This document shows, in pieces, positions 5,078 through 29,581 of a stretch of DNA of 34,492 nt; the first letter of the stretch is position 1, and every line of letters starts with the position of its first letter. The notes under the pieces were generated by a model. It did not search any database and was not told where the DNA came from. It saw only the letters and a program-made list of their open reading frames with translations. This stretch comes from Acidimicrobiia bacterium (GTDB lineage: Bacteria > Actinomycetota > Acidimicrobiia > Spongiisociales > UBA11373). The position numbers and the translations under genes were made by a program. The DNA is taken from positions 1-34,492 of the forward strand of contig JAFGCH010000027.1 of the NCBI GenBank assembly GCA_016932695.1, given 5' to 3'.

Positions 5078-6133
5078 TCAGCGGCGGGCCACCAGTACCC
5101 GGAAGTCCCCCAGCCCGCGAGGGTGCAAGAGAGCCTCACCGCCGGTGATCAGGCTCCGGACCCGCAGCCTTTCCAGTGCATTGCCTTCCCGAGCGAGGGC
5201 GAGTTCCTCAGCGCGCCTGGCCTTGAGCAGGTCGCCCAGGCCCCAGCGCTCCAAGAAGGACGCCTGGGAGTAGATCTCGGCCCGGGCGCCCTCCTCCTCC
5301 GCCGCCGTCCGCAGCGCCCCAAAGTCCACGTCCAGGGTGATGTCGGTATGCCCGGGTTCCAGCAGGGGATCGGGCCCGAGGTGATGCCCCCGGTAGGTGC
5401 GCAGCGTCCCCTCGGCACGCCTCGCCGTCAGCCCCGGGCCGGTGTCCCCGTAGTCCACAACCAGCACGGCACCGGCGGCGAGGCGGCGCAGCGTGCCCCG
5501 CAGCCACTCCCCGGCGGCGATCTGGGCTTCCACCAGGCCGCCTTCGGGGACCGGCCCGGCATGGCGCTCCGCCCAGGCCGCCACCTCAGGCCGGGCGGGG
5601 CCTTCGAGCCAGCACAAGCGCCCCTGCTCCTCTCCCACCAGGCGCTCCGCCCACCCCCCGTCGCGCCGCACCGCCACGGCGGCGGGCAGGTTGTCGGCCA
5701 GCTCGTTGGCCACCACTACGCCCCGGATCGGCAGGGTCAGGGCGGCGGGGGATTGCGCCACGGCCGCCTCGGGCACGAAGAGGCGCAGAGACTCCCGGGC
5801 CGCCGGGGAGACCTCCAGCGCCCAGGCCCGCACCCCGACCCGCGCCGCGTCCAGCAGGGAACGCAGCAGCGTCCCCGAGCCCGCCCCGGCATCCACCACC
5901 ATCACCGGGTCGGCGCCGATCCGCCCCGCCTCCGCCTCGACGAAGCGAGCCAGTACCGCTCCGAAGAGCGGGCTCACCTCGGGGCTGGTGAGGAAGTCGC
6001 CTTCCCGCGCCGAGCGCAGCGGGCCGGCGGTGAAGTAGCCCTCGTCGGGATCGTACAAAGCGGCCCGCATGAACTCATCGAAAGGCAGCGGCCCCTCGGC
6101 ACGGATGCGGGCGGCGAGGCGGGCTCCCAGCAC
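5078..6133 (-). CDS. NDUFAF7/MidA-family SAM-dependent methyltransferase, last gene of nuo operon
   Basis: A 351-residue protein of the Methyltransf_28 (DUF185) family, whose mitochondrial member NDUFAF7 dimethylates an arginine of the complex I subunit NDUFS2 during assembly. Visible marks are the N-terminal ARIRAEGPLPFDEFM, the family signature GDFLTSPEVSPLFG (about 45-58), SAM motif I DAGAGSG (81-87) and VVANELADNLP. It begins with GTG nine bases after the nuoN stop codon and is clearly part of the nuo transcription unit. A TANNNT box (TAGCCT) sits 6 nt before the GTG, so an extra internal start is possible. NuoD in this operon keeps the arginine corresponding to the human target. That NuoD is its substrate is inference. 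Confidence 0.88.
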   Translation of the reverse strand: MLGARLAARIRAEGPLPFDEFMRAALYDPDEGYFTAGPLRSAREGDFLTSPEVSPLFGAVLARFVEAEAGRIGADPVMVVDAGAGSGTLLRSLLDAARVGVRAWALEVSPAARESLRLFVPEAAVAQSPAALTLPIRGVVVANELADNLPAAVAVRRDGGWAERLVGEEQGRLCWLEGPARPEVAAWAERHAGPVPEGGLVEAQIAAGEWLRGTLRRLAAGAVLVVDYGDTGPGLTARRAEGTLRTYRGHHLGPDPLLEPGHTDITLDVDFGALRTAAEEEGARAEIYSQASFLERWGLGDLLKARRAEELALAREGNALERLRVRSLITGGEALLHPRGLGDFRVLVARR

Positions 6134-6142
6134 GCTCCCAGG

Positions 6143-7615
6143 CTACGGCAGGGCCAGGCCCCGCGCCGCCTCACCGAAGAAGGCCAGCAGCTGCGGGTAG
6201 AAGCCGGCGGCCAGAGTCACCGCCAGGGTGATCACCAGCGCCGCCGCCAGCGGCCGGGAGAGCGGGGCCCCTTCCGGCAGAGACTCGGGAGCCGGGTCCA
6301 TGAAGGCCGCCTTGAGCACCCGGGCGTAGAAGAACAGGGCGATCACCGCGTTCACCGCGGCGATCACTGCCAGCGATACTCCCCAAGCGTTCCCCGGGTC
6401 GCCCAGGACCGCCTTGAACATGACGAACTTGGCGAACCATCCGGCCAACGGCGGGATGCCGGCCAGCGAGAAGAAGAACACTCCCAGCAGGGTGGCCAGG
6501 GTGGGCGAGTACCGCGCCAGGCCGGCCCAGTCGTCTATCTCCCGGCTGCCGGTGCGCTCGGCGATGGCGATGACCGCGGCGAACGCCCCCAAGTTCATGA
6601 AGGCGTAGACCAGCAGGTAGGTGAGCGAGCCGAAGAAGGCCTCCTCCAGGGCCGGGCCCTCGAAAGCGGCGGCCATGGCGAAGGGCACCAGGATGAACCC
6701 GGCGTGGGCCACCGAGGAGTAACCCAACAGGCGCACCACGTTGCTCTGGCGCAGGGCGGTCAGGTTGCCCACCGTCATGGTCAAGGCGGCCAGCACCCAC
6801 AGGGCGGGGCCCCACACGTCGCGCGCCCCGGCAAAAGCCGAGTAGCAGATGGTCAGCAGGCCCACGACACCCGCTCCCTTGGAGCCCACCGACAGGTAGG
6901 CGGCCACGGGGAGGGGCGCCCCCTGGTAGGTGTCCGGGGCCCAGAAGTGGAAGGGGACGGCGGCGATCTTGAAGCCGAAGCCGACCAGGGTGAAGAGCAC
7001 CCCGAGCACGAAGGCCGACTCACCCGAAACGGCGGCGGTCGCCCCGGCAATGCGGGTGAAAGTGGACTCCCCGGTGGTGCCGTACACCAGCGACATGCCG
7101 AAGAGGAGCACCGCCGACGACAGGACGCCGATGAGGAAGAACTTCAGCGAGGCCTCGTTGGAGCGCAGGTCGCCCTTGCGCCACCCGGCGAGCAGGAACG
7201 CCGGTGCGGAGACCAGTTCGAGGCCGATGAACATGGTGATCAGGTCCCGCGCCGAAGCCATGACCACCGCCCCAGCGATCGACGCCAGGATCAGGAAGTA
7301 GTACTCGCCCTCGTAGTAGCGGTCGCCCCGCAGGTAGCTCATCGAGGCCAGCAGCACGATGGCCCCGGCGACCAGGAACAGGCCCTTGACCACCAGGGCG
7401 AAGTCGTCCACCACGTAGGACCCGGCGAACATCTCTCGCGTCCCCCCGACCCCCGCCAGAGTCAGGAGGGGCACTCCGGCGGCCAGGAGGCCCACGATGC
7501 CCGCCGCCCCGGCCAGCCAGCGGCGGCGCGGGGCCACCAGCAGGTCCACCCCCAGCACCACCAGCAGGGTGGCGCCGAGGATGAACTCTGGTAGCAGGGC
7601 GTGGTAGTCGAACAC
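6143..7615 (-). CDS. nuoN: Complex I membrane subunit N (first set)
   Basis: An antiporter-like proton-pumping subunit of complex I, 490 residues, with about 14 membrane segments. The proton_antipo_M core is visible, including FIGLELVSAPAFLLAG (conserved Glu), the SLKFFLIGVLSSA segment, FKIAAVPFHFWAPDTYQGAP (conserved Lys) and LLGYSSVAHAGFIL. I chose the GTG at 7615 because GGAGG lies 8 nt upstream; a TTG at 7630 in the same frame would place that site inside the gene. It starts 4 bases after the nuoM stop and ends 9 bases before the methyltransferase gene. Confidence 0.93.
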   Translation of the reverse strand: MFDYHALLPEFILGATLLVVLGVDLLVAPRRRWLAGAAGIVGLLAAGVPLLTLAGVGGTREMFAGSYVVDDFALVVKGLFLVAGAIVLLASMSYLRGDRYYEGEYYFLILASIAGAVVMASARDLITMFIGLELVSAPAFLLAGWRKGDLRSNEASLKFFLIGVLSSAVLLFGMSLVYGTTGESTFTRIAGATAAVSGESAFVLGVLFTLVGFGFKIAAVPFHFWAPDTYQGAPLPVAAYLSVGSKGAGVVGLLTICYSAFAGARDVWGPALWVLAALTMTVGNLTALRQSNVVRLLGYSSVAHAGFILVPFAMAAAFEGPALEEAFFGSLTYLLVYAFMNLGAFAAVIAIAERTGSREIDDWAGLARYSPTLATLLGVFFFSLAGIPPLAGWFAKFVMFKAVLGDPGNAWGVSLAVIAAVNAVIALFFYARVLKAAFMDPAPESLPEGAPLSRPLAAALVITLAVTLAAGFYPQLLAFFGEAARGLALP

Positions 7616-7619
7616 TCGC

Positions 7620-9203
7620 TCAGCCTCCAAAGGCCCGCGCCACCAGGCGCTGGACGGAATCGTTGGTAGTGCCGAAGACGATGGCCGGGTACACGCCGAC
7701 GGCCAGCGTGGCCAGCACCAGGGGCACCCAGGCCCCCAGCTCGTAGCCGTCGGCGTCGCGGAAGGACTTCTCCCGCCACTCCTCGGGGATCTCCCCCAGG
7801 TTGACCCGCTGCAGCATCCACAGCAGGTAGCCCGCGGTGAGCACGGTGCCGATGGCCCCTATCACCATGGCGCTGCGGAAAAGCGCCAGGTTGGCCCCGG
7901 CGAAGGGGTTGTACGAGGCCAGCAGGGCCATGAACTCGCCCCAGAAGCCGGCCAGGCCGGGCAGGCCCAGTGAGGCCATGGCGGCAAAGCCCAAGATGCC
8001 CCCCAACCGGGGCAGGATCTTCTGGTTGCCGCCCAGGCGGGCCATCTCCCGGGTGTGGTAGCGGTGCTGGATCGACCCGGCCAGGAAGAAGAGCAGGCCG
8101 GTGATGATGCCGTGGGCCACCATGCCCACGATGGCGGCGTTGATGCCCACCTCGGTGAGGGTGGAAATCCCCAGCATCACGAAGCCCATGTGGCCCACGG
8201 AGGAGAAGGCGATCAGGCGCTTCATGTCGGTCTGCGCCAGGCAGGCCAGCGACCCGTAGATGATGGCAATCACCGCCAGGATCGCGATGACCGGGGCCCA
8301 GGCCTTGGCCTCTTCGGGGAGGATGGGCAGGGCGATGCGGATGAAGCCGTAGGACCCCAGCTTCAGCAGGATGGCCGCCAGTAGCACCGAGCCCACGGTG
8401 GGGGCGGCGGTGTGGGCGTCGGGCAGCCAAGTGTGCAGCGGCCACATCGGCACCTTGACGGCGAAGCCCAGGAACAGGGCGAAGAACACCCAGAAGGCGA
8501 AGGTCCCGGTGAACAACTGCCCCTCCGCCCCCCGGGCCGATAGCGCCTCGATGTCGAAGGTGCGGGGGAGGCCCCCGTTGCCGGAGCGGAAGTACAGGGC
8601 CAGGAAGCCCAGCAACATGAACGCCGAGCCGAACAGGGTGAAGAGGAAGAACTTGATGGCGGCGTAGAGCCGGGTCTCCACCGGGCGCTTGAAGCCCGGC
8701 AGCCGCATGGGGTTACGGTCGCCCCAGATCCCGATCATGAAGTACATCGGGAGCAGCACCAACTCGAAGAAGATGAAGAAGAGCACCAGGTCCAGCGCCA
8801 CGAAGGTCCCCGCCATGCCGGTGGCCAGCACCAGCATCAGCACCAGGAACGCCTTGGGGTTGTGCGGCTCGGGCCAGTGGTTCCACGAATAGATCACACA
8901 CAGCAGGGTGATGAAGGTGGAAAGCACCACCAGCGGCAGGCTGATCCCGTCGACCCCGATGTGGAACCGCGAGTCGATGGCCGGGATCCAGGAGGTGTCG
9001 GCCCCGAACTGGTAGCCCGCCGAGCCGAAGTCGAAAGCCACGGTGGCGATCACCGACACGACGAAGGAGGCGGCGGCGAAGCCGAGGGCGATGGCCTTGA
9101 TCGCCGTCTCCCGGGCGCGCGGGACCGCCAGCACCACGGCCGCCCCCACCAGGGGGAGGAACACGATGAGGCTCAGCCCCCACCCGTTCTCGAACCAGCC
9201 CAT
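7620..9203 (-). CDS. nuoM: Complex I membrane subunit M (first set)
   Basis: An antiporter-like proton-translocating subunit, 527 residues, the normal size for NuoM. Family segments include FFIFFELVLLPMYFMIGIWG (conserved Glu), KFFLFTLFGSAFMLLG, FAVKVPMWPLHTWLPDAHT (conserved Lys) and LIAFSSVGHMGFVMLG. Compared with the second NuoM in this window it has a 15-20 residue insertion after the IWG motif (DRNPMRLPGFKRPVETR). The ATG at 9203 has GGAGG nine bases upstream. The gap to nuoL is 15 bp. Confidence 0.95.
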   Translation of the reverse strand: MGWFENGWGLSLIVFLPLVGAAVVLAVPRARETAIKAIALGFAAASFVVSVIATVAFDFGSAGYQFGADTSWIPAIDSRFHIGVDGISLPLVVLSTFITLLCVIYSWNHWPEPHNPKAFLVLMLVLATGMAGTFVALDLVLFFIFFELVLLPMYFMIGIWGDRNPMRLPGFKRPVETRLYAAIKFFLFTLFGSAFMLLGFLALYFRSGNGGLPRTFDIEALSARGAEGQLFTGTFAFWVFFALFLGFAVKVPMWPLHTWLPDAHTAAPTVGSVLLAAILLKLGSYGFIRIALPILPEEAKAWAPVIAILAVIAIIYGSLACLAQTDMKRLIAFSSVGHMGFVMLGISTLTEVGINAAIVGMVAHGIITGLLFFLAGSIQHRYHTREMARLGGNQKILPRLGGILGFAAMASLGLPGLAGFWGEFMALLASYNPFAGANLALFRSAMVIGAIGTVLTAGYLLWMLQRVNLGEIPEEWREKSFRDADGYELGAWVPLVLATLAVGVYPAIVFGTTNDSVQRLVARAFGG

Positions 9204-9218
9204 CTCGCTCGCCCTCCT

Positions 9219-11305
<2,087 letters not shown>

Positions 11306-11306
<1 letters not shown>

Positions 11307-11611
11307 CACCACTTCATCAGGTCGAGCTCGTCCACGTTGGCCGACGAGCGGTTGCGGAAGATCAGGATCACGATGGCCAGGCCGATGCCCACCTCGGCGG
11401 CGGCGACGGTGATGACGAACAGGGCGAAGATGTGGCCGGTGTGCAGGGTGTCCCCCAGCAGCGAGCCGAAGGCCACCAGGTTGATGTTCACCGCCGCCAG
11501 CATCAGCTCTATGGAGAGCAGCACCGCCACCGCGTTGCGCCGTACCAGCACGCCGTAGACGCCCAGAGAGAAGAGCAGGGCCCCGAGGATGAGGAACTGG
11601 TTGACCGTCAT
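11306..11611 (-). CDS. nuoK: Complex I membrane subunit K
   Basis: A small three-helix Mrp-like subunit of complex I, 101 residues, the standard length. It shows LGVYGVLVRRNAVAVLLSIELMLAAVNINLVAF, with the conserved Glu of helix 2 in SIELM, followed by the second acidic helix (VAAAEVGIGLAIVI, Glu in AEVG). It starts ATGA-overlapped with nuoJ and ends overlapping nuoL. Confidence 0.96.
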
Positions 11612-12192
11612 TCCTTGGGATCGCTTTCCTTGGGGTCGCTTTCCTTGGGATCGCTCTTCTTGGGATCGCTTCCCTTGGGGTCCTTTCGGGCGACCACGAT
11701 GCCGCCGATCAGCGCCGCCAGCAACACGAAGGACACGGCCTCGAAGGGAATCACGAAGCGCCGGAAGAGCGCGTCGCCCAGATCCCCGGTGAGGTTCCGC
11801 TCCACCGCCGCCCCCTCGGCCCAGCCGAAGAAGGCGGTGGTGGCATAGGCCAGGGTGGCGAACACCGCCGCCGCCACCGCCAGCGCCGGCCAGCGCCGCC
11901 GGTGGTCGAGAGGTATGGGATCACGGCGCAGCGGGGCACGGGTGATCATGAGGCCGAAGAGGAACAGCACCACCACCGCCCCGATGTAGACCAGCACCAC
12001 CGTCCAGGCCACGAACTCTGCTCCGAGCAGCAGGAACAGGGCGGCCGACCCGGCCAGGGCCACCACCAGCATCAGGACGGCGTGCACCAGGTTGCGGGAG
12101 GTGACCACCCACCACCCGGCGGCCAGCATCACCACCCCGATCACCAGGAAGACGATGTTCTCGCTCTGGCCGATCCACTCGCCGAAGCTCAC
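11608..12192 (-). CDS. nuoJ: Complex I membrane subunit J with repeated acidic/basic tail
   Basis: A 194-residue membrane subunit of complex I with about five helices. The pi-bulge helix region is recognisable ([17 protein letters not shown]), as is [27 protein letters not shown]. The GTG start at 12192 overlaps the nuoI stop as GTGA. Unusual is the C-terminus: after the last helix (about 168) it ends in [24 protein letters not shown], five tandem 5-residue units encoded by a 15-bp DNA repeat. Typical NuoJ proteins lack this tail. Its role is unknown. Confidence 0.94.
11611..11685. repeat. Five 15-bp tandem repeats at the 3' end of nuoJ
   Basis: The plus-strand unit TTCCTTGGGATCGCT repeats at 11611, 11626, 11641, 11656 and 11671. 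The first three units differ by at most one base, and the fourth and fifth diverge by a few. Being in frame, they give the SDPKE tail of NuoJ and end exactly before the nuoJ stop/nuoK start overlap. Confidence 0.9.
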
Positions 12193-12710
12193 GGCTCACC
12201 CCCCTCCGGCTCGCTCCCTTCGAGGGCGGGAGGCTCGGGCACGGTCGCCAGCCACTGCGTCAGCCGCTCCTTGCCGTGCAGCAGGTCGGCCAGGCTCTCC
12301 GCCGAGTACTCGTACTCCGGGGACCAGAAGAGGGCGTCGAAGGGGCAGACCTCCACGCAGATCCCGCAGAACATGCACAGGGCGAAGTCGATGTCGAAGC
12401 GGTCGAGCACCGAGCGGGTGCGGGCCCGACCCCCCGGCTCGGCGGGCGGTTGCTGCACCTTGTGGCCCTCGATGTAGATGCACCAGTCGGGGCATTCCCG
12501 GGCGCAGAGCATGCAGACGGTGCAGGCCTCCACGTCGAGGGCGATGACCCCGCGCGCCCGCTCCGGCGGGATCTCCTTTTCCACCGGGTACATCACCGTG
12601 ACCGGCTTGCGCAGGAAGGTGCGAAAGGTGAGCCACATGCCCTTGAAGAGCCCCCAGCCCGGGACCACCGAGCGGAGGCGCTTGCCGGAGGAGGAGCGGG
12701 GGATGCTCAC
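12189..12710 (-). CDS. nuoI: Complex I iron-sulfur subunit I
   Basis: A ferredoxin-like subunit of the peripheral arm, 173 residues, carrying clusters N6a and N6b. Two complete 4Fe-4S motifs are present: C63-x2-C66-x2-C69-x3-C73 and C112-x2-C115-x2-C118-x3-C122. The N-terminal amphipathic stretch (about 15-35) fits membrane attachment. The GTG start at 12710 overlaps the nuoH stop as GTGA. With no NuoG, NuoF or NuoE encoded here, NuoI would be the entry point for electrons, as in ferredoxin- or F420-linked 11-subunit relatives. Confidence 0.95.
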
Positions 12711-13720
12711 AGCACCACCTTCAGCGTGGCGGTGACGGCGATGTTGGCCAGGGCCAGCGGCACCAGCCAGCGCCAGGCCAGCGACTGCAGCTGGTCCTCG
12801 CGCAGGCGCGGCCAGGTCCAGCGGAACCAGATCATGACGAACACCAGGATGAGCGACTTGCCGATGAGCACGAACGGCCCGAACCAGTCGGCGTTCAGCC
12901 CCCAGAAGTGATAGCCGCCCAGGAAGAGGACCGAGGCGATGGCCGACATGGCCAGCATGCCGGCGTACTCCCCCAGCAGGAACATGGTGAAGCGGATGCC
13001 GGAGTACTCCGTCAGGTAGCCCATCACCAGTTCCGATTCGGCGATGGGCATGTCGAAGGGGATGCGCACCAGTTCGGCCAGGGCGGCGATCATGAAGATG
13101 ACGAAGCCGATGATCTGGCCCTGCAGGGCGTAGGGCAGGGAGATGCCCACCGAGCCGATGTGGAACAGGGGCTGGGCCTGGGCCTCGGTGATTCCTACCA
13201 TCGACATGGTGCCCGCCTGGATGACCACCCCCACCACCGCCAGCACCAGGGGCAGCTCGTAGGCGATCAGCTGGGCCCCGGCCCGCAGGCCGCCGATCAA
13301 CGAGTACTTGTTCCCCGACGACCAGCCGGCCATGAGCAGGGCGATGGTGCTCACCGACCCGGCGGCCAGCGCGTAGAAGATGCCCACGTCCAGGTCGCCG
13401 GCCACCAGCACCGGGGAGAGCGGGATGATCACGATCACCGCAAAGGTGCCCAAGAGCGACACCATGGGGGCCAGGCGGAACACCGGGGCATCGGCGTCGC
13501 GGGGGATCAGATCCTCCTTCTGGAGGAACTTCAGCGCCTCGGCGAACACCTGGGCCCAGCCCCAGCGGCCCCCGGCGAAGTAAGGGCCGATGCGGTGCTG
13601 CATGTGGGCCGACACTTTGAGCTCGGCGAACATCACCACCAGGGCCAAGGCAAAGAGGATCACCACGGCCAGGCCCAGCTTGACCGCCAGCACCACCCAG
13701 ACGTTGTCGAGCAGGCTCAT
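12707..13720 (-). CDS. nuoH: Complex I membrane subunit H
   Basis: The 337-residue, eight-helix subunit that forms the quinone entry channel and links the peripheral arm to the membrane arm. Diagnostic stretches are the [27 protein letters not shown] region, LQKEDLIP, and the acidic helix with [22 protein letters not shown]. The frame is open upstream, but family homology begins at the ATG at 13720, which overlaps the nuoD stop as ATGA. Confidence 0.96.
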
Positions 13721-14916
13721 CGGTCCACGTCCCCGAGGACGAAGTCGAGGCTGCCCAGGATGGCGATGACGTCGGGGATCAAGGCCCCCTCCAGCAGCCA
13801 GGGCAGCACCTGCAGGTTGCAGAACGAGGCCGAGCGGATCTTCACCCGGTAGGGACGCCGCCCCCCGCCGGAGACGATGTGGTAGCCCATCTCCCCCTTG
13901 GGGTTCTCCGCCCGGACGTAGCACTCGCCCTTGGGCACCTTGATGACCCGGGGCACCTTGGCCTGCAGCGGCCCGCCGGGCAGGGAGTCGACGGCCTGCT
14001 CGATGATGCGGGCGCTCTGGCGAATCTCCTCGAGGCGCACCCGGCAACGGTCGTAGTTGTCGCCGTTGGGCATGGTGACCACGTCGAAGTCGAAGCGGTC
14101 GTAGGGCAGGTAGTCCTCCACCTTGCGCAGGTCGAAGGGCACGCCGGAGGCCCGCAGGTTGGGCCCGCTCATGGCGTACTCCACCGCCTTGTCGGCGGGG
14201 AGCACCCCGATGCCTATGGTGCGCTGCTGCACGATCTCGTTGCCCAGGACCAGGTTCTCGAGGTCGTCGCAGACGTGGCGTACCGCCGTCATGGCCCGTC
14301 GCGTCCCCTCGATGAAGCCCTTAGGTAAGTCCTGGGCGCGGGTGCGCTGCGTGGACCCGCCCCCGGCCGCGGGCTTCACCCCGCCGATACGGTTGAAGTT
14401 GGGATGGAAGCGGCCCCCGGTGACGCCCTCGATCAGGTCCAGCACCCGCTCCCTCTCCCGCAGGGCATACATCAGCGGAGTCGGCGCCCCCAGTTCGGCG
14501 GGGAAGGAGCAGAGGAAGATGAGGTGGTTGGAGATACGGAACATCTCGGTGAGGATGAGACGGATGCACTGGGCTCGCTCCGGCGCCTCGACCCCCATGA
14601 GGCGCTCGGCGGCGACGATGAAAGGGATCTCGTTGGCGAAACCCGACACCCAGTCGATGCGGTTCACCAGAGCGGTGATCTGGGCGTAGGTGCGCACCTC
14701 GGCCAGCTTCTCGTAGCCGCGGTGCATGTAGCCCATCACCGGCTGCACGCTCCGCACCCGCTCTCCGGCGACGGTGGCCACCAGGCGCAGCACCCCGTGG
14801 GTAGAGGGGTGCTGCGGGCCGATGTTGAGGACCATGTCCTCCGTCTGCAGCTCCACCGAAACCGCCGCCTCGGAGCGGTGCATGGCCAGCAGGTGCCGAT
14901 CGGCGGGAGTGGTCAC
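13717..14916 (-). CDS. nuoD: Complex I 49-kDa subunit D with Trp at the quinone-site Tyr position
   Basis: The catalytic quinone-site subunit, 399 residues, ancestrally related to NiFe-hydrogenase large subunits. [13 protein letters not shown] (H36 and H40, equivalent to His34/His38 of Thermus Nqo4) and the C-terminal [19 protein letters not shown] are canonical. The quinone-binding Tyr (Tyr87 in Thermus, in the context MDYL) is Trp89 here (IDWV). Arg66 in YMHRGYEK matches the arginine that NDUFAF7 methylates in human NDUFS2. The start is GTG at 14916: GGAGG lies 7 nt upstream, and it overlaps the nuoC stop as GTGA. The open frame continues upstream through nuoC but is only a shadow there. 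Confidence 0.95.
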
Positions 14917-15533
14917 GCCCCGCCCTCCTTCGGCTCGCCGGCGGATCCCTCGGCGGCGGGCAGCGGGGTGACCTCCACCGCCCCCGGCCAGGCCTTCACC
15001 TCGCGGGCCAGCAGCGGGTAAGACTTGCGCAGGGGATGACCCACGAACCCCTCGGACAGGTAGATGCGCACCGGGTTGGGATGCCCCACGAAGGTGATGC
15101 CGAACATGTCGGCCGCCTCGCGCTCGTGCCAGTCGGCGGCGGTGTATACGCCCGCCAGCGAGTCGATGGTGAGGTCGTCCGGCGGCAAGTCGGTGGAGAG
15201 GATCACCGCCTCCCCGGCGGAGACGTCCGAAAGGCGGCTGATGACCTCGTAGCGCTCCTCCACCGGTTCGCCTTCCAGCGGGTCTCCCACCGCCACCTCG
15301 TTGGACCAGTCGATGGCCGAGAGCCAGGCGAAGAAGGGCAGGTGCGGCTGCAGGGCGCGGTGGGCCTCCACCCAGCGCTCCCGGGGCACCCGCACCTTGA
15401 CGGTGCGGAAGGCGTCGGCCCATTCCGCCGAGCCGACCAGGGCCGCCCAGTGTGCGGCGCGCGCGGGCGGCGTCTCGGCAGAGGGGGTCTCCGGATCGGG
15501 CGCCGGGGCGGCGGGGGGCTCAGGCTCGCTCAC
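14913..15533 (-). CDS. nuoC: Complex I 30-kDa subunit C
   Basis: A 206-residue peripheral-arm subunit that packs against NuoD. The family core is clear: [18 protein letters not shown], then [12 protein letters not shown] and the end signature [10 protein letters not shown]. The first 25 residues are a Pro/Glu-rich, low-complexity extension ([16 protein letters not shown]). The GTG at 15533 overlaps the end of nuoB by 14 bp. Only a weak ribosome site is visible, so translation is probably coupled to nuoB. Confidence 0.94.
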
Positions 15534-16011
15534 CGGCGTTCCACTTCTCTTTGATGTCCTCGCCCATGATCTTGCGCTGGAGCAGGACGATGCCCTCCAT
15601 GAGCGCCTCGGGCCGCGGCGGGCAGCCGGGCACGTAGACGTCCACCGGGATGATCTGATCGACCCCCTTGGTGACGTTATAGGAGTCCCAATAGGGGCCG
15701 CCGCAGTTGGCGCACGACCCCATGGAGATGACGTACTTGGGCTCGGGCATCTGGTCGTACAGCTTGCGCACCGCCGGGGCCATCTTGTCGGTGATGGTGC
15801 CCGCCACGATCATGAGGTCGGCCTGCCGGGGGGAGGCGGGCAGCGGGATGATGCCGAAGCGCATGAAGTCGTAGCGCGGCCCGGCGGCGGCCATCATCTC
15901 GATAGCGCAGCAGGCCAGGCCGAACTGGAAGAGCCAGAGGGAGTACTTGCGCGACCAGTTGAGGAGCCAGGTCAGCGGCTTGGGGGAGTCGAACCGATCT
16001 AGGACTCCCAC
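15520..16011 (-). CDS. nuoB: Complex I subunit B, carries cluster N2
   Basis: A 163-residue subunit holding the terminal 4Fe-4S cluster N2 that reduces quinone. The four ligands are C34 and C35 ([10 protein letters not shown]), C100 ([10 protein letters not shown]) and C130 ([11 protein letters not shown]). An additional Cys103 makes a CxxC, unlike the CAxS of many canonical NuoB proteins. The N-terminus is short. The GTG at 16011 lies inside the end of nuoA (13-bp overlap) and is the only start close to the conserved region; in-frame codons farther upstream would read through nuoA. Confidence 0.94.
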
Positions 16012-16367
16012 TTGAGCACTCCCTTGCGGATGGCGTAGACCAAGCCGGCGAGCAGGATCACGATGAAGATGACCATCTCCACCAGGGCGAACAGGCCCAG
16101 CTGCTCCAGCCGCACCGCCCAGGGGAAGATGAAGGCCGCCTCGACGTCGAAGATCAGGAACAGCAGAGCGAAGATGTAGTAGCGGATGTGGGTCTGGCTC
16201 CAGCCGCCGCCCACCGGGTCGATGCCGCACTCGTAGGCTGTGGCCTTGGCGGCCGAGGGACGGCTCGGGCGGAGCAGCCAGCCGACTCCTACCGCTGCCG
16301 CTACCAGGAGAGCGCCGAAGCCGGCGAAGACGGCGACGGTGATGTAGTCCTGGAAGTACTCCGCCAC
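15999..16367 (-). CDS. nuoA: Complex I membrane subunit A, first gene of operon
   Basis: A three-helix membrane subunit, 122 residues. The family pattern is visible: [46 protein letters not shown], including the YECG loop with the cysteine that lines the quinone-site region and the FDVE acidic helix. The GTG at 16367 is preceded by TAGGAG about 5 nt upstream. It opens the twelve-gene operon, and a -10-like TATACT lies about 30 bp upstream. Confidence 0.95.
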
Positions 16368-16509: not shown

Positions 16510-18390
16510 CTAGGGCACCTGGTAAGTCACCACCAGCTGGGGCCGGCTGGCGGTGATCGCCTCGCCGGTGAGCAGCGACAGGTAGTCGGCCTGCCCGTTC
16601 AGGTTGTTCCCCTCGAACCGCAGCCTCACCTGGGTGACGCCGGTCAGGTTCACCAGCGGCCAGGCCGAGGCGCGTAGCGGAGCTCGGTACCAGCGGTCCT
16701 CCGGCGTCTTCACGAACCGTCCCACGTTCCCGCGCGTGCCCATGGCGTGGAAGTCGAAACGCTCCAGGCTCACGCTGTCGTGAAACCAGCCGGTCTTGAT
16801 GTCCACCTTCAGCAAGCCCATCGAGTCGAACGGGTTATCCCCCACCAGGCCCTGCCGACGAACCCGCACCGTCGCACCCACGACCACCGCATCGTCCGGC
16901 AAGGAGGCGGTGTTGAACGACAGCACCGTCCGGTACTGACGACCGGCGGCATCGTCCCCCACCCGGGTAGTGATCGCCGCTGCCTCCAGCGAGCCTCCCT
17001 TGCCGGACCCAACAGCGCTCTCCAACACCCAGCCGTCGTTGGCGGCTGCCGAACGGAAGACCGCCTCTACTTGCAGCGGTTCCACCTCGTAACTGCGCAC
17101 GAACACATCATGTGAGCCGGCGTTGGGCTCCTGGAGGGGCAGGGTCCCGCTGGTGGCGCCGGCGACGTACATCGCTCTTTCCCCAACTGCCACCCCATAG
17201 GCGTAGTTCTTGCCCGTTTCAGTGTCGATTGTGCGGGTCCACAGTTCCTTGCCGGCGTGGTCGTACCTACGGACGAAGCCCACTAGGCCCTGTTGGGGCA
17301 ACCCGGGCAACGGGCCCGACGTCTCCCCCACCAGGTAGACCCCGGCGGCGTCCGCCGCCACCCCCCAGCCAATCTGGGTATCAGGGACCTCCGAACCACA
17401 CACCTGGCGGGTCCAACCCTCGCCGCCGGCAGGGTCGTACTGGCGCACGAAGGCGTCCTCGCCGCCGGTAGAGGTCTGTCCGGGCAAGACCGCTCTCGTG
17501 CTGCCCACGACATAGACTGCGGCGCCTCCCACCGCCACCCCCCAGCCGAAGTCGAAGTAGTTGGACCCGCTGGTCGAACATATCTGGCGGGCCCACACCT
17601 GGTTGCCGGCATGGTCGAGCTTGGCGAGGAAGGCGTCTGGGTCCATGTTCCATGCCCCGGGATAGGTCGTCTGCCCGGGGAAGACCCCGTAGGTCATGCC
17701 GGCCACGTAGACGCCGGTGGCATCGACCGCCACCCCATTGGCCTCGTCCACATCGTTGGTGCCGAACTGGCGGGTCCACCGGTGCTTGCCGGCATGGCTG
17801 TACTTGCGCACGAAGGCATCCCGGCTCTCGCAGTACTCCTGGTCGGGCAGGCAACCCGAGGTGTGTCCGGCCACGTACACCCCGGTAGCGTCTACCGCCA
17901 CGCCCCGGCCGTACTCGGCCGAGAATTCGCTGCCGACGCCGATGTCGCCGAACTGGCGGGTCCACAGGTGCTTGCCGTCGGGGTCGTACTTCCGCACGAA
18001 GGCATCCACCGAGCCGGCGAGACTCTGCCCCGGCAGGGCACCCTCGACCCCGCCGACCACGTACACCCCGCTGACGTCCACCGCCACCCCATAGCCGTGG
18101 TCTTCGCCGGCAGTACCGAACTGACGGGTCCAGAGGTGTTTGCCGGCCGGGTCGTACTTCCGAACGAACACATCGAAGTCGCCGGCCGCAGTCTGCCCCG
18201 GCAGGACGCCCTCGACGTCACCGGCCACGTACACCCCGCCGGAGTCTGCCGCCACCGCACGGGCTATTTCGTAACCGGTGCTACCGAACTGGCGGGTCCA
18301 GTTGACCTGGCCTTCCGCAGCCTCCACCCCCGGCAGCGCCCCTAGGCAGAGACCGGCCACTACTGCAAGCACGAGCAAGATCCGCCTCAT
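16510..18390 (-). CDS. Secreted SBBP beta-propeller repeat protein with C-terminal DNRLRE-like domain
   Basis: A 626-residue exported protein of unknown function. Residues 1-24 are a signal peptide (RRILLVLAVVAGLCLGALPG). Seven repeats of about 50-60 residues follow, each opening with W(T/A)R(Q/T), then G-VAVD--GVYVAG, LPGQ and DAFVRKYD-AGK. These are SBBP repeats, expected to form a beta-propeller with seven blades. The last ~200 residues contain RTVLSFNTASLPDDAVVVGATVRVR and end in RPQLVVTYQVP, matching DNRLRE/CBM-like beta-sandwich modules. I chose ATG 18390 because GGGAGGT lies 6 nt upstream; ATG 18396 abuts that site. It is probably cell-surface or extracellular; the ligand is unknown. 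Confidence 0.85.
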   Translation of the reverse strand: MRRILLVLAVVAGLCLGALPGVEAAEGQVNWTRQFGSTGYEIARAVAADSGGVYVAGDVEGVLPGQTAAGDFDVFVRKYDPAGKHLWTRQFGTAGEDHGYGVAVDVSGVYVVGGVEGALPGQSLAGSVDAFVRKYDPDGKHLWTRQFGDIGVGSEFSAEYGRGVAVDATGVYVAGHTSGCLPDQEYCESRDAFVRKYSHAGKHRWTRQFGTNDVDEANGVAVDATGVYVAGMTYGVFPGQTTYPGAWNMDPDAFLAKLDHAGNQVWARQICSTSGSNYFDFGWGVAVGGAAVYVVGSTRAVLPGQTSTGGEDAFVRQYDPAGGEGWTRQVCGSEVPDTQIGWGVAADAAGVYLVGETSGPLPGLPQQGLVGFVRRYDHAGKELWTRTIDTETGKNYAYGVAVGERAMYVAGATSGTLPLQEPNAGSHDVFVRSYEVEPLQVEAVFRSAAANDGWVLESAVGSGKGGSLEAAAITTRVGDDAAGRQYRTVLSFNTASLPDDAVVVGATVRVRRQGLVGDNPFDSMGLLKVDIKTGWFHDSVSLERFDFHAMGTRGNVGRFVKTPEDRWYRAPLRASAWPLVNLTGVTQVRLRFEGNNLNGQADYLSLLTGEAITASRPQLVVTYQVP

Positions 18391-18493
18391 CGCCATACCT
18401 CCCTGAGGCAAACGAGCGTCCACCCGAGACTACGCGGTCAATACCGACGATGACGGGGCGGCACCAGCGCAGAGCCGGCCGGCACGCTCAGCC

Positions 18494-20737: not shown

Positions 20738-20743
20738 GTGCCC

Positions 20744-24061
<3,318 letters not shown>

Positions 24062-24646: not shown

Positions 24647-25588
24647 TCATCCCTTGACCGACCCGGCGGTGAGGCCCCGCACGAAGTAGCGCTGCAGGGA
24701 GAAGAAGACCGCCAGCGGCAGGGTCATGGAGATGAAGGCCCCGGCGGTCAGCAGCTGCCATTCGTTTCCCCGGGAGGCATTCAACTCCATTAGGGCCTGG
24801 GTGAGCACCCGGTTCTGCGGCTCCCCGCCCAGGAAGATCAGGGCCACCAGGAGGTCGTTCCACACCCACAGGAACTGGAAGATGGCAAAGGACGCCAGCA
24901 CCGGCACCGACAGCGGGATGATCAGCCGGGTGAAGATCTTGAAGTGGTCGGCGCCGTCGATGCGCGCCGACTCGATGATGCTCGACGGCAGCGAGCCGAT
25001 GTAGTTCCGCAGAAGGTAGACCGCCAGCGGCAGCCCGAAACCGGTGTGGGCCAACCACACCGCCAGGTAGGTCCCGTTCAGGTCGAGGTCGGGGAAAATC
25101 GTGACGCCGAACACCTCCGCCCCCGACGTATAGAGGCGGAGGATGGGAATGAGTGCCATCTGCAGAGGGACCACCAGCAGCCCCACCACCACCACGAACA
25201 GGACGTGGCGCCCCTTGAACTCCATCCAGGCGAAGGCATAGGCGGCGAAGGCGGCGATGGTGATGGGAATCACCGTCGAGGGAATGGTCACCGCCAGGCT
25301 GTTGAGGAAGGCATTGCCGAACCCCTGGCGCGAAAGAACGGCGTCGTAGTTGCTGATGGTCCAGGTCGCCTTGTCGAACATGTGGGGGAAGACCGTCCAC
25401 CAGCCCGTGGCGTTGATGTCGTCGGTGGGACGGAAGGACGTGATCAGCAACCCCACCGTGGGGATCAGCCAGAGGATCACGATGAGCAAGACGACGAACT
25501 TCACCAGCCAGTGGTCGGTGAGCCAGGAGAGGCGACGGTGCCGCCGGGATCCGGAGCGGGCCGGCGCCGGTGCGGTGGTGGCCGTCAT
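24647..25588 (-). CDS. aglG: Alpha-glucoside-type ABC transporter permease (MalG/AglG-like)
   Basis: An inner-membrane permease of the CUT1 sugar family, 313 residues, with six membrane helices after a basic cytoplasmic N-terminus. The EAA loop that contacts the ATPase is IIESARIDGADHFKIFTRLIIP (about 204-225). The stretches FAAYAFAWMEFKGR, LQMALIPILRLY, LAHTGFGLPLAVYLLRNY and the end FSLQRYFVRGLTAGSVKG closely resemble AglG of the rhizobial alpha-glucoside transporter as I remember it. The start overlaps the aglF stop as ATGA, with AGGAGGAG upstream. Substrate (trehalose, maltose or sucrose) is inferred from family and the nearby trehalose synthase. Confidence 0.85.
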   Translation of the reverse strand: MTATTAPAPARSGSRRHRRLSWLTDHWLVKFVVLLIVILWLIPTVGLLITSFRPTDDINATGWWTVFPHMFDKATWTISNYDAVLSRQGFGNAFLNSLAVTIPSTVIPITIAAFAAYAFAWMEFKGRHVLFVVVVGLLVVPLQMALIPILRLYTSGAEVFGVTIFPDLDLNGTYLAVWLAHTGFGLPLAVYLLRNYIGSLPSSIIESARIDGADHFKIFTRLIIPLSVPVLASFAIFQFLWVWNDLLVALIFLGGEPQNRVLTQALMELNASRGNEWQLLTAGAFISMTLPLAVFFSLQRYFVRGLTAGSVKG

Positions 25589-26748
25589 CGCGTCTCCTCC
25601 TGCTGCCGGAACTTACGCACGTTCACGACCATCATGGGGATCACCGCAATGAACAGGATCACGGCGAGTGCCGCCCCGACCCCGTCGTTGCGGAAGGTGA
25701 AGAACTCCTTCACCATGCGCTGGGCTACCACCGAGGTGTTGAAGCGCCCCCCGGTCATCACGAAGACGATGTCGAATACCTTCCACACCACAATGGTGAT
25801 GGTCGTCACCACCACCACCACCGTGGAGGCGATGGAGGGCAGCACCACCCGGGTGAATACCTTCCACTCACTGGCCCCGTCGATGCGGGCGGCCTCGAGC
25901 AGGTCTTCGGGCACCGACTTGATGGCGGCCGACAGAATCACCATGGCAAACCCCGTCTGCAGCCAGATCAGGATCACCATCAGGTAGAGGTTGTTCCACG
26001 GTTCCTGCAGCAGCCAGGCGACCGGTTTGTTTCCCATGCCGGTCCAGATCCCGTTGAGCAGCCCGATCTGCTCGCCGAAGCCCGCCGAGCGAAAGCTGTA
26101 GACGAATCCCCACACGATGCTGGCCCCGACCAGTGAGATCGCCATGGGCAGGAAGATCATGGATTTGGCGGTGGACTCGGTGCGCCGCCCGAGCTTGTCG
26201 GTCAGGGTGGCGAAGGCCAGTCCGATGATCACCGACGCCGCCGGCACGATCACCACCCACAGCAGGCTGTTGCGGATCGCCACCAGCGTTTCGCTGTTGG
26301 TGAAGATGTCGATGAAGTTGCCCAGGCCCCCCTGGGAAGCCCAGTTCTCCCCCTTGGCGTCCTTGAAGGCGAGGATCGTGGTGTTGATCGCCGGGTAGAT
26401 GAGGTAGACGGCGAGGATCACCAGAGCCGGGCCCACGAAGACGGCGGGGCGTACGGACTCGCGGATGCGGGCGGGGAGCACGGTGCTCACCAGCAGGTCC
26501 ATGCCCCAGTACAGGAGCCAGATGCCCCCCACTCCCACCACGATGGCCACCACCGCCACCAGCAGGCGGTTCGCGTCGGAGTCGCGCAGGAAGTTGAAGG
26601 TGAGCCAGAGCAGGAGGAAGCCGATGATCGGCACGGCCAGGGCCGCCGCCATCCGGAGAATCGAGAGCAGCGAGCCGCGCGCCCCCGCGCTCAGGAGCCG
26701 GCGACGCGGCTCCGGGGCCTTGTCCGGCAGTACCGGCGGCTCGGCCAT
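25585..26748 (-). CDS. aglF: Alpha-glucoside-type ABC transporter permease (MalF/AglF-like)
   Basis: A membrane permease partner of AglG, 387 residues. Two extra N-terminal hydrophobic segments (about 33-54 and 62-81) precede the six-helix core. The EAA loop is DLLEAARIDGASEWKVFTRVVLP (about 282-304). ATG 26748 has AAGGAG five bases upstream; an adjacent TTG in frame is too close to that site. It is separated from the binding-protein gene by 112 bp that carries a strong hairpin. Confidence 0.85.
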   Translation of the reverse strand: MAEPPVLPDKAPEPRRRLLSAGARGSLLSILRMAAALAVPIIGFLLLWLTFNFLRDSDANRLLVAVVAIVVGVGGIWLLYWGMDLLVSTVLPARIRESVRPAVFVGPALVILAVYLIYPAINTTILAFKDAKGENWASQGGLGNFIDIFTNSETLVAIRNSLLWVVIVPAASVIIGLAFATLTDKLGRRTESTAKSMIFLPMAISLVGASIVWGFVYSFRSAGFGEQIGLLNGIWTGMGNKPVAWLLQEPWNNLYLMVILIWLQTGFAMVILSAAIKSVPEDLLEAARIDGASEWKVFTRVVLPSIASTVVVVVTTITIVVWKVFDIVFVMTGGRFNTSVVAQRMVKEFFTFRNDGVGAALAVILFIAVIPMMVVNVRKFRQQEETR

Positions 26749-26787
26749 CAACGCTCCTTTCCCACCCTCGCCGACTCTAGCGAGGGA

Positions 26788-26812
26788 GGGGGCGGCTGGT
26801 TTAGCCGCCCCC
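26788..26812 (-). promoter_or_regulatory. Intercistronic stem-loop between aglE and aglF
   Basis: A perfect 10-bp stem (26788-26797 with 26803-26812) around a 5-nt loop, extended by an imperfect GAGGGA/TCCTC base to about 26782-26818, lies between the binding-protein stop and the aglF start. Hairpins at this position are known in other sugar ABC operons, where they attenuate transcription or protect the upstream mRNA so the binding protein is made in excess. No T-tract is present. Confidence 0.5.
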
Positions 26813-26860
26813 CTCCTCTAGGTGATTGCTTCGCACCGATTGCCTGCTGCCGAATGTGGC

Positions 26861-28219
26861 CTACTCCGCGGGCCAGCCGGCTTCAACGGCGTCGACGACC
26901 TCCTGGGTCGGGGTGCCCCGGCTCCAGTCGATCATCCCGGTCCAGAAGGAGCCCTGCCCCACGGCCGGCGGCATCAGGTCGGAGGCATCGAACACGAAGC
27001 TGTTCGAAGCCAGGGCCGCCGTGATCGAAGCGGCGAATGCCTTGGCGGCATCCGTCTCGTAGCAGTCGGGTGAGACGTCCTTGTGGCCCGGCAGGCGCTC
27101 CACGCCGGCCACCCCGTGGCCGCCGTGCATGCTCGCGGTGCCCCCGGAGGGGGAGGCCAGCACGCACTGCCATTCGGGGGTGATCCAGTCCTTGATCGCC
27201 TGGACCACTGCGGGCTGCGGATCGAACACGATCAGGGTGTCGCCGCCGCCCATCGCCCCGGTGTTCCCCTCGATGGTGGGGAAGGGGAAGGTCTTCATGA
27301 TCCCCTCCCCGCCCTCCGGGAAGTAGTTGGCGATGAACGAGCCCTGCTTGAACATCAAGCAGTCGGGCGGATCGTTGAACGCCGGCAGCGGGGTGTCGCG
27401 GAAGTTGATCGCCGCCACCCCGTCGGTGCCGCCGAGCACGAACCCTTCGCCGAAGAAGATGTCCCCGAAGATGTCGAAGGCTTCGACGACCATCGGATCG
27501 TTGAAGGGGATCTCGTGACGGAACCACTGGCCGTAGACCTCGCCGCCCCAACGGCGGACCATGATGTCCTCGAGCCAGTCGGTGGCGGGCCAGCCGCTGG
27601 CATCGCCTGATTCGAAGGCGAAGCACCACGGGGTCATCCCGTCGGCCACGATCTGCTCGCTCAGGGCGACCAGGTCCTCGTAGGTCTCGGGAATCTCGTA
27701 GTTCATCTGGGTGAACATGGGCTCGTGGTAGAAGACGATGCTCTTGAAGTTGGGGAACCACGGAATGCCGTAGTGCTTCCCGTCGTCGCAGAGCCCCAGG
27801 TCCATCCAGAACTTGCCATGGTTGGCTTCCATTGCGGCGATATCGAAGCCCATGTCCTCCAGCGAGGCCAGCGCGCCTTCCTCGGCAAAGACGCAGATCG
27901 AGGCAGGCTGCGGGGTGAAGGCCACGAGCGGCGGATTGCCGCCGTCGACCCGGATCCGCAACTGCTCCTCGAAACTGTCCGACCCCTCGAAGGTGATGTT
28001 CGATCCCTTCACGCTGTTGTAGGCGTTCAGGAACCCGGTCATGGCGTCACCTTCGGCGGCTACCGGGGCCCCAAACACGGTGAAGGTCGCTCCCTCCATC
28101 ACGTCCGTGGCGCCCGTCGTCGTGGTGGCGGCGGTAGTGGTTGTCGCGTCGTCGTCGCCGCAAGCGGCAACCAGCAACGCGAGAACGGCGAAGATGACGA
28201 CCCATCTGAGTCGCTTCAC
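26861..28219 (-). CDS. aglE: Alpha-glucoside ABC transporter substrate-binding lipoprotein (AglE-like)
   Basis: A 452-residue extracytoplasmic solute-binding lipoprotein. KRLRWVVIFAVLALLVAAC is a lipoprotein signal with lipobox LVAAC (Cys20), followed by an Asp/Thr-rich linker (about 21-37). The mature part has the cluster B sugar-binding fold, with landmarks such as GIPWFPNFKSIVFYH, PETYEDLVALSEQI, WPATDWLEDI and FPFPTIEG. I chose GTG 28219 because GGAGG lies 7 nt upstream; an ATG at 28234 is in frame but contains that site. It is the first gene of the transporter operon. No ATPase gene is in the window, so a shared MsmK/UgpC-type ATPase elsewhere is likely. Confidence 0.85.
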   Translation of the reverse strand: MKRLRWVVIFAVLALLVAACGDDDATTTTAATTTTGATDVMEGATFTVFGAPVAAEGDAMTGFLNAYNSVKGSNITFEGSDSFEEQLRIRVDGGNPPLVAFTPQPASICVFAEEGALASLEDMGFDIAAMEANHGKFWMDLGLCDDGKHYGIPWFPNFKSIVFYHEPMFTQMNYEIPETYEDLVALSEQIVADGMTPWCFAFESGDASGWPATDWLEDIMVRRWGGEVYGQWFRHEIPFNDPMVVEAFDIFGDIFFGEGFVLGGTDGVAAINFRDTPLPAFNDPPDCLMFKQGSFIANYFPEGGEGIMKTFPFPTIEGNTGAMGGGDTLIVFDPQPAVVQAIKDWITPEWQCVLASPSGGTASMHGGHGVAGVERLPGHKDVSPDCYETDAAKAFAASITAALASNSFVFDASDLMPPAVGQGSFWTGMIDWSRGTPTQEVVDAVEAGWPAE

Positions 28220-28220
28220 G

Positions 28221-28246
28221 TGTGCACCTCCCATGTCGATTGCACA
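28221..28246. promoter_or_regulatory. Inverted repeat overlapping the aglE ribosome-binding site
   Basis: TGTGCA (28221-28226) and TGCACA (28241-28246) form a 6-bp inverted repeat with a 14-bp spacer that contains the aglE Shine-Dalgarno sequence. It could be an operator or an RNA element limiting translation. It may also be chance. A -10-like TAGGGT lies upstream on the minus strand (28292-28297). The rest of 28220-28414 holds no gene I can support. Confidence 0.25.
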
Positions 28247-28414
28247 CCGCCGGGCCGCACGACTCACGCCGGCAGGCCTCGGCTGCACCTCACCCTACCA
28301 AACCTGTTCCTTCCTGCGCCACCGGCTGCCGGGAGCGACCAGCAAGCGGCAGTCGCCGCTTCGAGTATGAGACGGCACCGGGGGAACGGGCGCCGTTGCT
28401 CCCCGGCCGCCGCC

Positions 28415-29581
28415 TTAAGCGGCGGGGCTTGCCGGGAGTAGCGGCAGGGGGCCGGGGCCGCTCGCCCGTCGCGCCTCCCAGGCCCCAATGGTGAAGGCCC
28501 CCAGGCCGATCACCAGGGGGATCAGGTAGATCACCGCCGCCGCCAGCGAGAGCAGCCACATCCCGGCCCGCCAGGCCAGCGCCGCCACCACGAAGCCCGC
28601 CAGCACGCCGCCTCGCCCTTTCAGCAGGCGCTCCCCGGCCGCCGCCACCGCCGGGGCCGGCCCCAGGAAGAGCCCTAAGACCCAGAAGAGCAGAAGGAGC
28701 ACGGCGACCGGCAGGCCCACCAGGCTGAGGAACAGGGGAAGGGCTACCACCGGAGGGAGCACCAGCACCGCTAGTCCCACCAGGGCGGAGCGCCCCGGCC
28801 GCTGCCGGGCCACCCGCACCGCCCGGGCGCCCGTCCCCCGGAACAGCCAGAACAAGGCCACCCCCGACGCCACGAAGCCCAGCACCGACAGCCAACCCAG
28901 CAGCCGCGTCAGCGCCTGGGCCCAGACCGGCGCCAGCACCTCGGCCTGCACCACCGCCCCGCCCACGGCCGCCGCCGGCGAGAGGCGGACGTCGTCGCTG
29001 GCCCGGAAGGTGACGTCCCCCTGGACCCGGGCCGAATCACCCAGCGCCATGTCATCGACCCGGGCCACCACGTCCCGGCCCACCTCGCCGTCCACGGTCA
29101 GCTGCCAGGCCTGGGCCCGCACGTCCCGTCCCACCCGAGCGGTGACGTCGGCATCCCCGCCCACGACCAGCACGTCCCGCCCCACCTCGCCCCCGACGCG
29201 GGCCTCTCCGATCAAGCCGCTCACGTCCCCGCCGATCCGGCCGGAGGTCTCCAGGCGCAGCGCGGCCACCAGCACCGAATCCCCCACTTCGCCGCCGAGG
29301 CGCACCGGGCCGCCCACCAGGCCGATGATGTCGCCTTCCACCGTCCCGGTGACGATGACCTCGCCGGTGAGCACCACCAGGTCTCCCCGTACCACCCCCT
29401 CCACGATGGTGCGCCCCCCCACCGCGTACAGGTCCTCGGTGACCGTGTCGTCCTCGGTGACGATCACCTGGTTGGCGGTGCGGATGCTCCCCAGCACGGG
29501 GGCCACCGGCAGGGCAATGCCCCCGGCCAGCAGGACGATCCCGGCGAGGCGCCCCAGGAGACGGCTAAAGAGGAAGGGCAT
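28415..29581 (-). CDS. Membrane-anchored bactofilin-like polymer-forming protein
   Basis: A 388-residue protein. A hydrophobic N-terminal segment (about 5-31) is followed by a run of short beta-helix turns rich in G-x-V-x-G-D-V (about 38-215), the pattern of bactofilin/polymer-forming domains. Four or five membrane helices follow (about 229-250, 265-290, 291-312, 326-350 and 345-368). The beta-helix would probably lie outside the membrane, unlike classical cytoplasmic bactofilins. Its ATG at 29581 overlaps the end of the second nuoN by 17 bp, so it belongs to that operon. The function is unknown; a scaffold or envelope-associated role is a guess. Confidence 0.75.
   Translation of the reverse strand: MPFLFSRLLGRLAGIVLLAGGIALPVAPVLGSIRTANQVIVTEDDTVTEDLYAVGGRTIVEGVVRGDLVVLTGEVIVTGTVEGDIIGLVGGPVRLGGEVGDSVLVAALRLETSGRIGGDVSGLIGEARVGGEVGRDVLVVGGDADVTARVGRDVRAQAWQLTVDGEVGRDVVARVDDMALGDSARVQGDVTFRASDDVRLSPAAAVGGAVVQAEVLAPVWAQALTRLLGWLSVLGFVASGVALFWLFRGTGARAVRVARQRPGRSALVGLAVLVLPPVVALPLFLSLVGLPVAVLLLLFWVLGLFLGPAPAVAAAGERLLKGRGGVLAGFVVAALAWRAGMWLLSLAAAVIYLIPLVIGLGAFTIGAWEARRASGPGPLPLLPASPAA

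Follow-up and report, generated by a model that had tools for sequence, protein, structure and literature searches.

A MidA/NDUFAF7-family methyltransferase encoded after nuoN of an 11-subunit complex I, and its pairing with Arg-type NuoD in Actinomycetota

Introduction

A methyltransferase of the MidA/NDUFAF7 family is encoded directly after nuoN of an 11-subunit complex I in the window (the whole stretch of 34,492 nucleotides analysed here, contig C140 of a 2.44-Mb assembly that is 96% complete), and the Actinomycetota genomes that carry such a gene almost always carry also a NuoD with arginine at the position of human NDUFS2 Arg85; the enzyme is most probably dedicated to this Arg-type complex, which lacks the NADH module.

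The arginine is symmetrically dimethylated in cow, human, Pichia and Paracoccus denitrificans and plain in Escherichia coli, as established by mass spectrometry (Carroll et al. 2013, PMC3750175), and NDUFAF7 is the enzyme responsible (Rhein et al. 2013, PMC3829151); alphaproteobacterial homologues are thought, according to a review, to act likewise (PMC9006661), and the proteobacterial origin of MidA has been treated by Shahul Hameed et al. 2018, as cited in PMC12455994. Since dimethylation was reported in P. denitrificans (PMC3750175), complex I arginine methylation in bacteria is not new; the suggestion of a first-pass annotation of this DNA, that such methylation also exists in bacteria, thus keeps its direction and loses its novelty. 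The modification may serve assembly, the potential of the Fe-S cluster N2, or both; a single cell holding a complex with a predicted methylated NuoD Arg and a second one with a NuoB Arg would represent a built-in comparison, and the likely role of the enzyme, so far tied to Proteobacteria and mitochondria, is extended here to include Actinomycetota and 11-subunit complexes.

The methyltransferase

The gene (5078-6133) runs on the minus strand from a GTG start at 6133 to 5078 and encodes 351 residues, the plus-strand reading of the same interval yielding no meaningful protein. The product matches PF02636 (Methyltransf_28; COG1565) with an E-value of 5.5e-36 and 124.7 bits, against a Pfam cut-off of 23.3, while none of the NCBIfam models matches at E 1e-3; its PDB sequence matches are only 4f3n/4g67 (COG1565), 1zkd and 5ztz (an NDUFAF7 homolog, the Dictyostelium MidA structure). 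An AlphaFold model, built with 21 relatives (pLDDT 93.7), superposes on 4f3n, 4g67, 1zkd and 5ztz/5zu0 with TM-scores of 0.77-0.83 (ranks 1-6), and a wide gap separates these from the remaining folds listed, other methyltransferases included (TM <=0.39). Profile and modelled fold together confirm the assignment to the bacterial MidA/NDUFAF7 family of SAM-dependent methyltransferases already proposed in the first-pass annotation. It is the only PF02636 copy in its genome, and its closest named relative, 81% identical over the methyltransferase, belongs to an unclassified Actinomycetota MAG (VGBK01000008.1).

The protein carries motif I as VVDAGAGSG, followed by ANELADNLP, VVDYGD and DITLDVDF; all residues that are invariant across 64 actinobacterial homologues (E..D, DY and D) are intact, as is the SAM-binding glycine motif (GAGSG). 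These features bear on the idea that the protein turned, in this lineage, into a non-catalytic assembly chaperone for NuoD: some divergent members, from the group of 6-10 Mb genomes labelled here Streptomyces-like, have indeed an altered motif I (e.g. MAAGRG) and have lost other consensus residues, but the window protein retains GAGSG, every invariant residue of the family and a confident predicted fold, so that a chaperone is the least likely of the alternatives that we considered. Two or more PF02636 genes are present in families f52 and f55 (five loci, L214-L216, L272 and L273; genomes G181, G149, G245 and G224).

The Arg-type nuo operon

Eleven nuo genes precede the methyltransferase on the minus strand, from 16367 down to 6143, in the order nuoA-B-C-D-H-I-J-K-L-M-N: nuoA (15999-16367), nuoB (15520-16005), nuoC (14913-15533), nuoD (13717-14916, 399 residues) and nuoH (12707-13720), identified from the sequence; nuoI (12189-12710, with two CxxCxxC motifs) and nuoJ (11608-12192), for which the annotation of relatives was also used; nuoK (11306-11611), named with the best-match annotation of relatives; and nuoL (9219-11312), nuoM (7620-9203) and nuoN (6143-7630), recognized by sequence and profile. 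With nuoE, nuoF and nuoG absent between nuoD and nuoH, this is the gene set of an 11-subunit complex. The stop of nuoN at 6143 and the GTG of the methyltransferase at 6133 leave a gap of 9 bp on the same strand, exactly as stated in the first-pass annotation; its further statement, which puts the methyltransferase last in the operon, fits the position of the next minus-strand ORF, a subtilase whose TTG lies at 4848, about 230 bp on. A promoter scan at the junction between nuoN and the methyltransferase found nothing, although at 70% G+C such a scan says little.

Directly upstream of nuoA and on the same strand lies a gene for an SBBP beta-propeller-repeat protein (16510-18423), with a LipL53-like profile and a weak DNRLRE-like C-terminus. 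Elsewhere in the window, three consecutive tRNA genes for Met(cat), Thr(ggt) and Tyr(gta) occupy 130-435 on the minus strand, an ORF at 20738-24061 on the plus strand reads like a trehalose synthase/maltokinase fusion, and ABC sugar transporter-like genes are found at 24647-28288 on the minus strand.

In the class to which the window belongs, the methyltransferase usually lies on the same strand as the nuoD motif and 9-10 kb downstream of it, which corresponds to the end of the operon. Neighbourhood to nuo operons, raised in the first-pass annotation, varies: gaps of 52-299 bp to nuoN were measured in eight loci, in other families too (L012, L014, L017, L025, L027, L069, L070, L079), while in some close relatives (L032, L081, L082) the distance grows to 2-6.6 kb, the intervening genes being toxin-antitoxin-like, Rhs-like or murI-like, and in some families the gene sits on another contig than nuo. 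In L032, for instance, nuoN is separated from a methyltransferase 81% identical to that of the window by Rhs-repeat-like ORFs together with a gene for a PIN-like toxin (6070-9810).

Such variation of the distance to nuoN within one order, with unrelated genes between, and the cases on another contig, are what would be expected if the gene were an unrelated neighbour read by chance from the nuo promoter, its correlation with the Arg type reflecting descent only. We consider this very unlikely, given that an Arg-type NuoD is close to the gene in several different arrangements, among them those of three groups with nuoD outside the operon. In these groups (the Streptomyces-like genomes, families f26/f60/f63, and family f25) the second nuo clusters examined have no nuoD between nuoC and nuoH (L136, L137, L138, L141), and a displaced Arg-type NuoD is found some 0.4-8.6 kb from the methyltransferase, often convergent with it; in Nonomuraea gerenzanensis, the methyltransferase occupies 465775-466485 and NuoD (GYMHRGAEK) 471061-472179. 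The four clusters were considered together with L065, L092, L072 and L067, where nuoD lies near the methyltransferase. On the tree of Arg-type NuoDs the genomes with a relocated nuoD form three separate groups; independent relocations number two or three, a count left uncertain by the lack of support for the deeper branching between two of the groups. Furthermore, in all genomes where one contig holds the methyltransferase, an Arg-type NuoD and a Thr-type NuoD, the shorter distance is that to the Arg type (20/20 genomes; median distance 8.8 vs 57.5 kb), and these within-genome comparisons side against a chance neighbour as well.

The target arginine and the two complexes I

NuoD, read from the GTG at 14916 and overlapping nuoC by 4 bp, carries Arg66 within GYMHRGYEK (codon CGC, 14719-14721, minus strand); this residue, equivalent to Arg85 of human NDUFS2, is the presumed methylation target. 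The first-pass annotation had correctly placed it in MHRGYEK and had noted that Thermus Nqo4 has Thr instead, as its HTG indeed shows. In a comparison of Thermus and Yarrowia, a NuoD Arg was found to pair with a NuoB Thr and a NuoD Thr with a NuoB Arg (Hameedi et al. 2021, PMC8042128), the swapped side chains occupying the same space beside N2 (PMC8042128). The window operon conforms to the first state, NuoB having Thr70 in AGTITDK (codon 15798-15796), a position taken by Arg in the Thr-type complex. In the operons surveyed, counted by loci with some genomes entering twice, NuoB has Arg in 49/49 Thr-type loci and, among 32 Arg-type loci, Thr in 30 and Ser in two, both of the latter belonging to distant NuoD-like proteins; a larger set (60, 32 and 2) is likewise without exception, and the combinations Thr/Thr and Arg/Arg were never met.

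Searching 397 Actinomycetota genomes with the DNA pattern G[YF]xH(R/T)GxEK revealed that in many of them an HTG NuoD coexists with an HRG one. The genome of the window is among them, with HTG on contig C22 (18501) and HRG on C140, so that it encodes a second, Thr-type complex I, which the first-pass annotation had missed. NuoF follows the Thr-type NuoD by about 2 kb in seven of seven relatives tested, and on this basis the Thr type is identified with the 14-subunit complex, which leaves the 11-subunit one for the Arg type; in the genome of the window no NuoF turned up, C22 stopping inside the Thr-type nuoD. Many Actinomycetota genomes hold both a 14-subunit complex that combines NuoD Thr with NuoB Arg and an 11-subunit complex in which NuoD has the Arg and NuoB the Thr.

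At the end of the contig (34477-29565, minus strand) lies a second nuoL-nuoM-nuoN set, which matches the LMN genes that precede the Arg-type operons of relatives (43-59%) better than the local set matches those genes (37-44%); it is consequently interpreted as the final part of the Thr-type operon. Judged from these similarities it looks like the end of the 14-subunit operon that starts with nuoA-D on contig C22; in closed genomes such as G074, the Thr-type operon directly precedes the Arg-type one.

Co-occurrence of the methyltransferase and Arg-type NuoD

PF02636 was found in 101 of the 397 genomes and, with an own profile, in G362. Exceptions on both sides were searched again with NuoD itself before cross-tabulation: most of the apparent cases of methyltransferase with Thr only turned out to be Arg-type NuoDs that the pattern had missed (MHRAAEK, MHRAFDK, MHRSVEK, MHRSLEK), and the mirror check on gene-less Thr-only genomes recovered eight overlooked Arg-type NuoDs, seven of them readable and all HR[AS]F, the eighth (G287) being assigned by identity with its motif cut off. 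In the resulting table, 94 of the 179 genomes with an Arg-type NuoD have the methyltransferase and 85 do not, while in the 62 Thr-only genomes it is present in three (G149, G264 and G335) and absent in 59 (Fisher p 1.3e-12, a value that ignores descent). The expectation of the first-pass annotation that gene and arginine go together across genomes holds, therefore, in one direction: where NuoD is readable, gene-bearing genomes have the Arg type in 94/97 cases and Thr only in 3/97 (in five incomplete gene-bearing genomes, 64-83%, NuoD is unreadable), but the arginine does not predict the gene. The 85 genomes whose Arg-type NuoD or NuoD-like protein comes without it imply that the Arg can do without modification, the situation in E. 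coli, or receive one by another route. As to G149, it has two PF02636 genes, and an Arg-type NuoD was not found in its draft genome.

Descent accounts for part of this pattern. Presence of the methyltransferase requires nine changes on the tree of Arg-type NuoDs, compared to 17.4 with shuffled labels, which means that much of the association is inherited; much of it may represent one ancestral linkage passed down.

The methyltransferase is mostly lacking where NuoD belongs to the HR[GAS]F clade or is an HRG[LI] NuoD-like protein, and the two HRG[LI] proteins that were read, at 31% identity, sit in gene clusters unlike nuo operons. Arg-type NuoDs with a Phe two residues past the Arg (HRGF, HRAF, HRSF; L240-L246, L074, L075, L078, L080) are almost always without methyltransferase. 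This Phe might stand in for the packing of the methyl groups, but the contrasts amount to about seven independent ones and are not significant. A more general rule, by which the residue after HRG predicts the gene (Y/H/A/M/V with, F/L/I without), gave striking raw counts and was not retained: it reduces to about seven independent contrasts (sign test p ~0.12), is broken outside the phylum by the HRGA of E. coli, which lacks the gene, and remains a lead only. No second methyltransferase was seen beside HRGF-type operons, where the C-D and I-J gaps of L074 and L075 were not resolved into genes.

Among control genomes outside the phylum, PF02636 is present in Caulobacter, Synechococcus and Haloferax and absent from E. 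coli and Thermus; as far as they go, these agree with the literature on the methylated Paracoccus, the unmodified Arg of E. coli and the Thr of Thermus.

Proposed function

Most probably, the enzyme symmetrically dimethylates Arg66 of the NuoD encoded in its own operon; the modified residue would sit where NuoD meets NuoB, beside the terminal Fe-S cluster N2, and would aid the joining of the two subunits and the settling of N2 while the 11-subunit, NuoEFG-less complex assembles. The other complex I of the cell (14 subunits; nuoA-D on C22, LMN at 29565-34477) would require no such enzyme, because its NuoD has Thr and its NuoB the equivalent Arg. Family and fold of the enzyme, gene order, the arginine, the phylum-wide pairing of gene and Arg type, and the Arg swap are observations; the symmetric chemistry and the residue that it targets, as well as its timing and its part at N2, are inferred from characterised relatives.

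It could be argued that the enzyme has another target, be it a different Nuo subunit, a component of the assembly machinery or a nucleic acid, and that this activity explains why it is linked to nuoD. Indeed, adenine and cytosine methylation in DNA has been reported upon expression of Wolbachia MidA in E. coli (PMC12455994), the function of prokaryotic MidA is described as inferred only in silico (PMC12455994), and the substrate in Actinomycetota is still a presumed one. However, where nuoD and the operon have split, the methyltransferase stays by nuoD and not by the remaining nuo genes, it is rare where NuoD has Thr, and both human NDUFAF7 and Paracoccus indicate the same Arg; another target is accordingly judged unlikely.

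With moderate confidence, the predicted methylation of NuoD Arg66 can be placed in a broader picture, in which Actinomycetota commonly run two complexes I and solve the problem posed by N2 either with an unmodified NuoB Arg or with a methylated NuoD Arg; the methyltransferase would mark only the complex without NADH module, NuoD and methyltransferase would form a module able to leave the nuo operon jointly, and some lineages (HR[GAS]F type) would have dropped the enzyme and kept the Arg, which would imply that methylation can vanish without loss of the complex.

Comparison with known systems

A literature search covering few subscription journals retrieved no papers on this pairing in Actinobacteria; none of the papers searched described the phylum-wide pairing, the restriction to one of two complexes per cell, or NuoD and methyltransferase genes paired away from the operon. 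With NDUFAF7/MidA of human and Dictyostelium (5ztz, 5zu0; PMC3829151) the window enzyme shares PF02636, the fold (TM 0.83), the invariant residues and, as candidate target, the HRG-motif Arg of the 49-kDa/NuoD subunit; unlike them, it is encoded at the end of a nuo operon and its partner is an 11-subunit complex without NADH module, the identity in the structural alignment being only 22-23%. The complex I of P. denitrificans, whose Nqo4 Arg65 is symmetrically dimethylated (PMC3750175), is also a case of a bacterial NuoD with Arg here, although the window's host belongs to another phylum; Caulobacter, an alphaproteobacterium related to Paracoccus, has PF02636, and in Sinorhizobium the methyltransferase gene lies between lgt and pgeF, away from nuo. 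The intersubunit Arg switch of Thermus and Yarrowia (PMC8042128) shows the same alternation, NuoD Thr/NuoB Arg versus NuoD Arg/NuoB Thr, whereas here a single genome holds both states as two complexes, with the methyltransferase tied to one only. Finally, the 11-subunit complex I-like enzymes such as that of Desulfitobacterium (PMC11238625) have the same nuoABCD-HIJKLMN arrangement without nuoEFG; a difference is that in Actinomycetota a methyltransferase gene is attached and many hosts possess also a 14-subunit complex.
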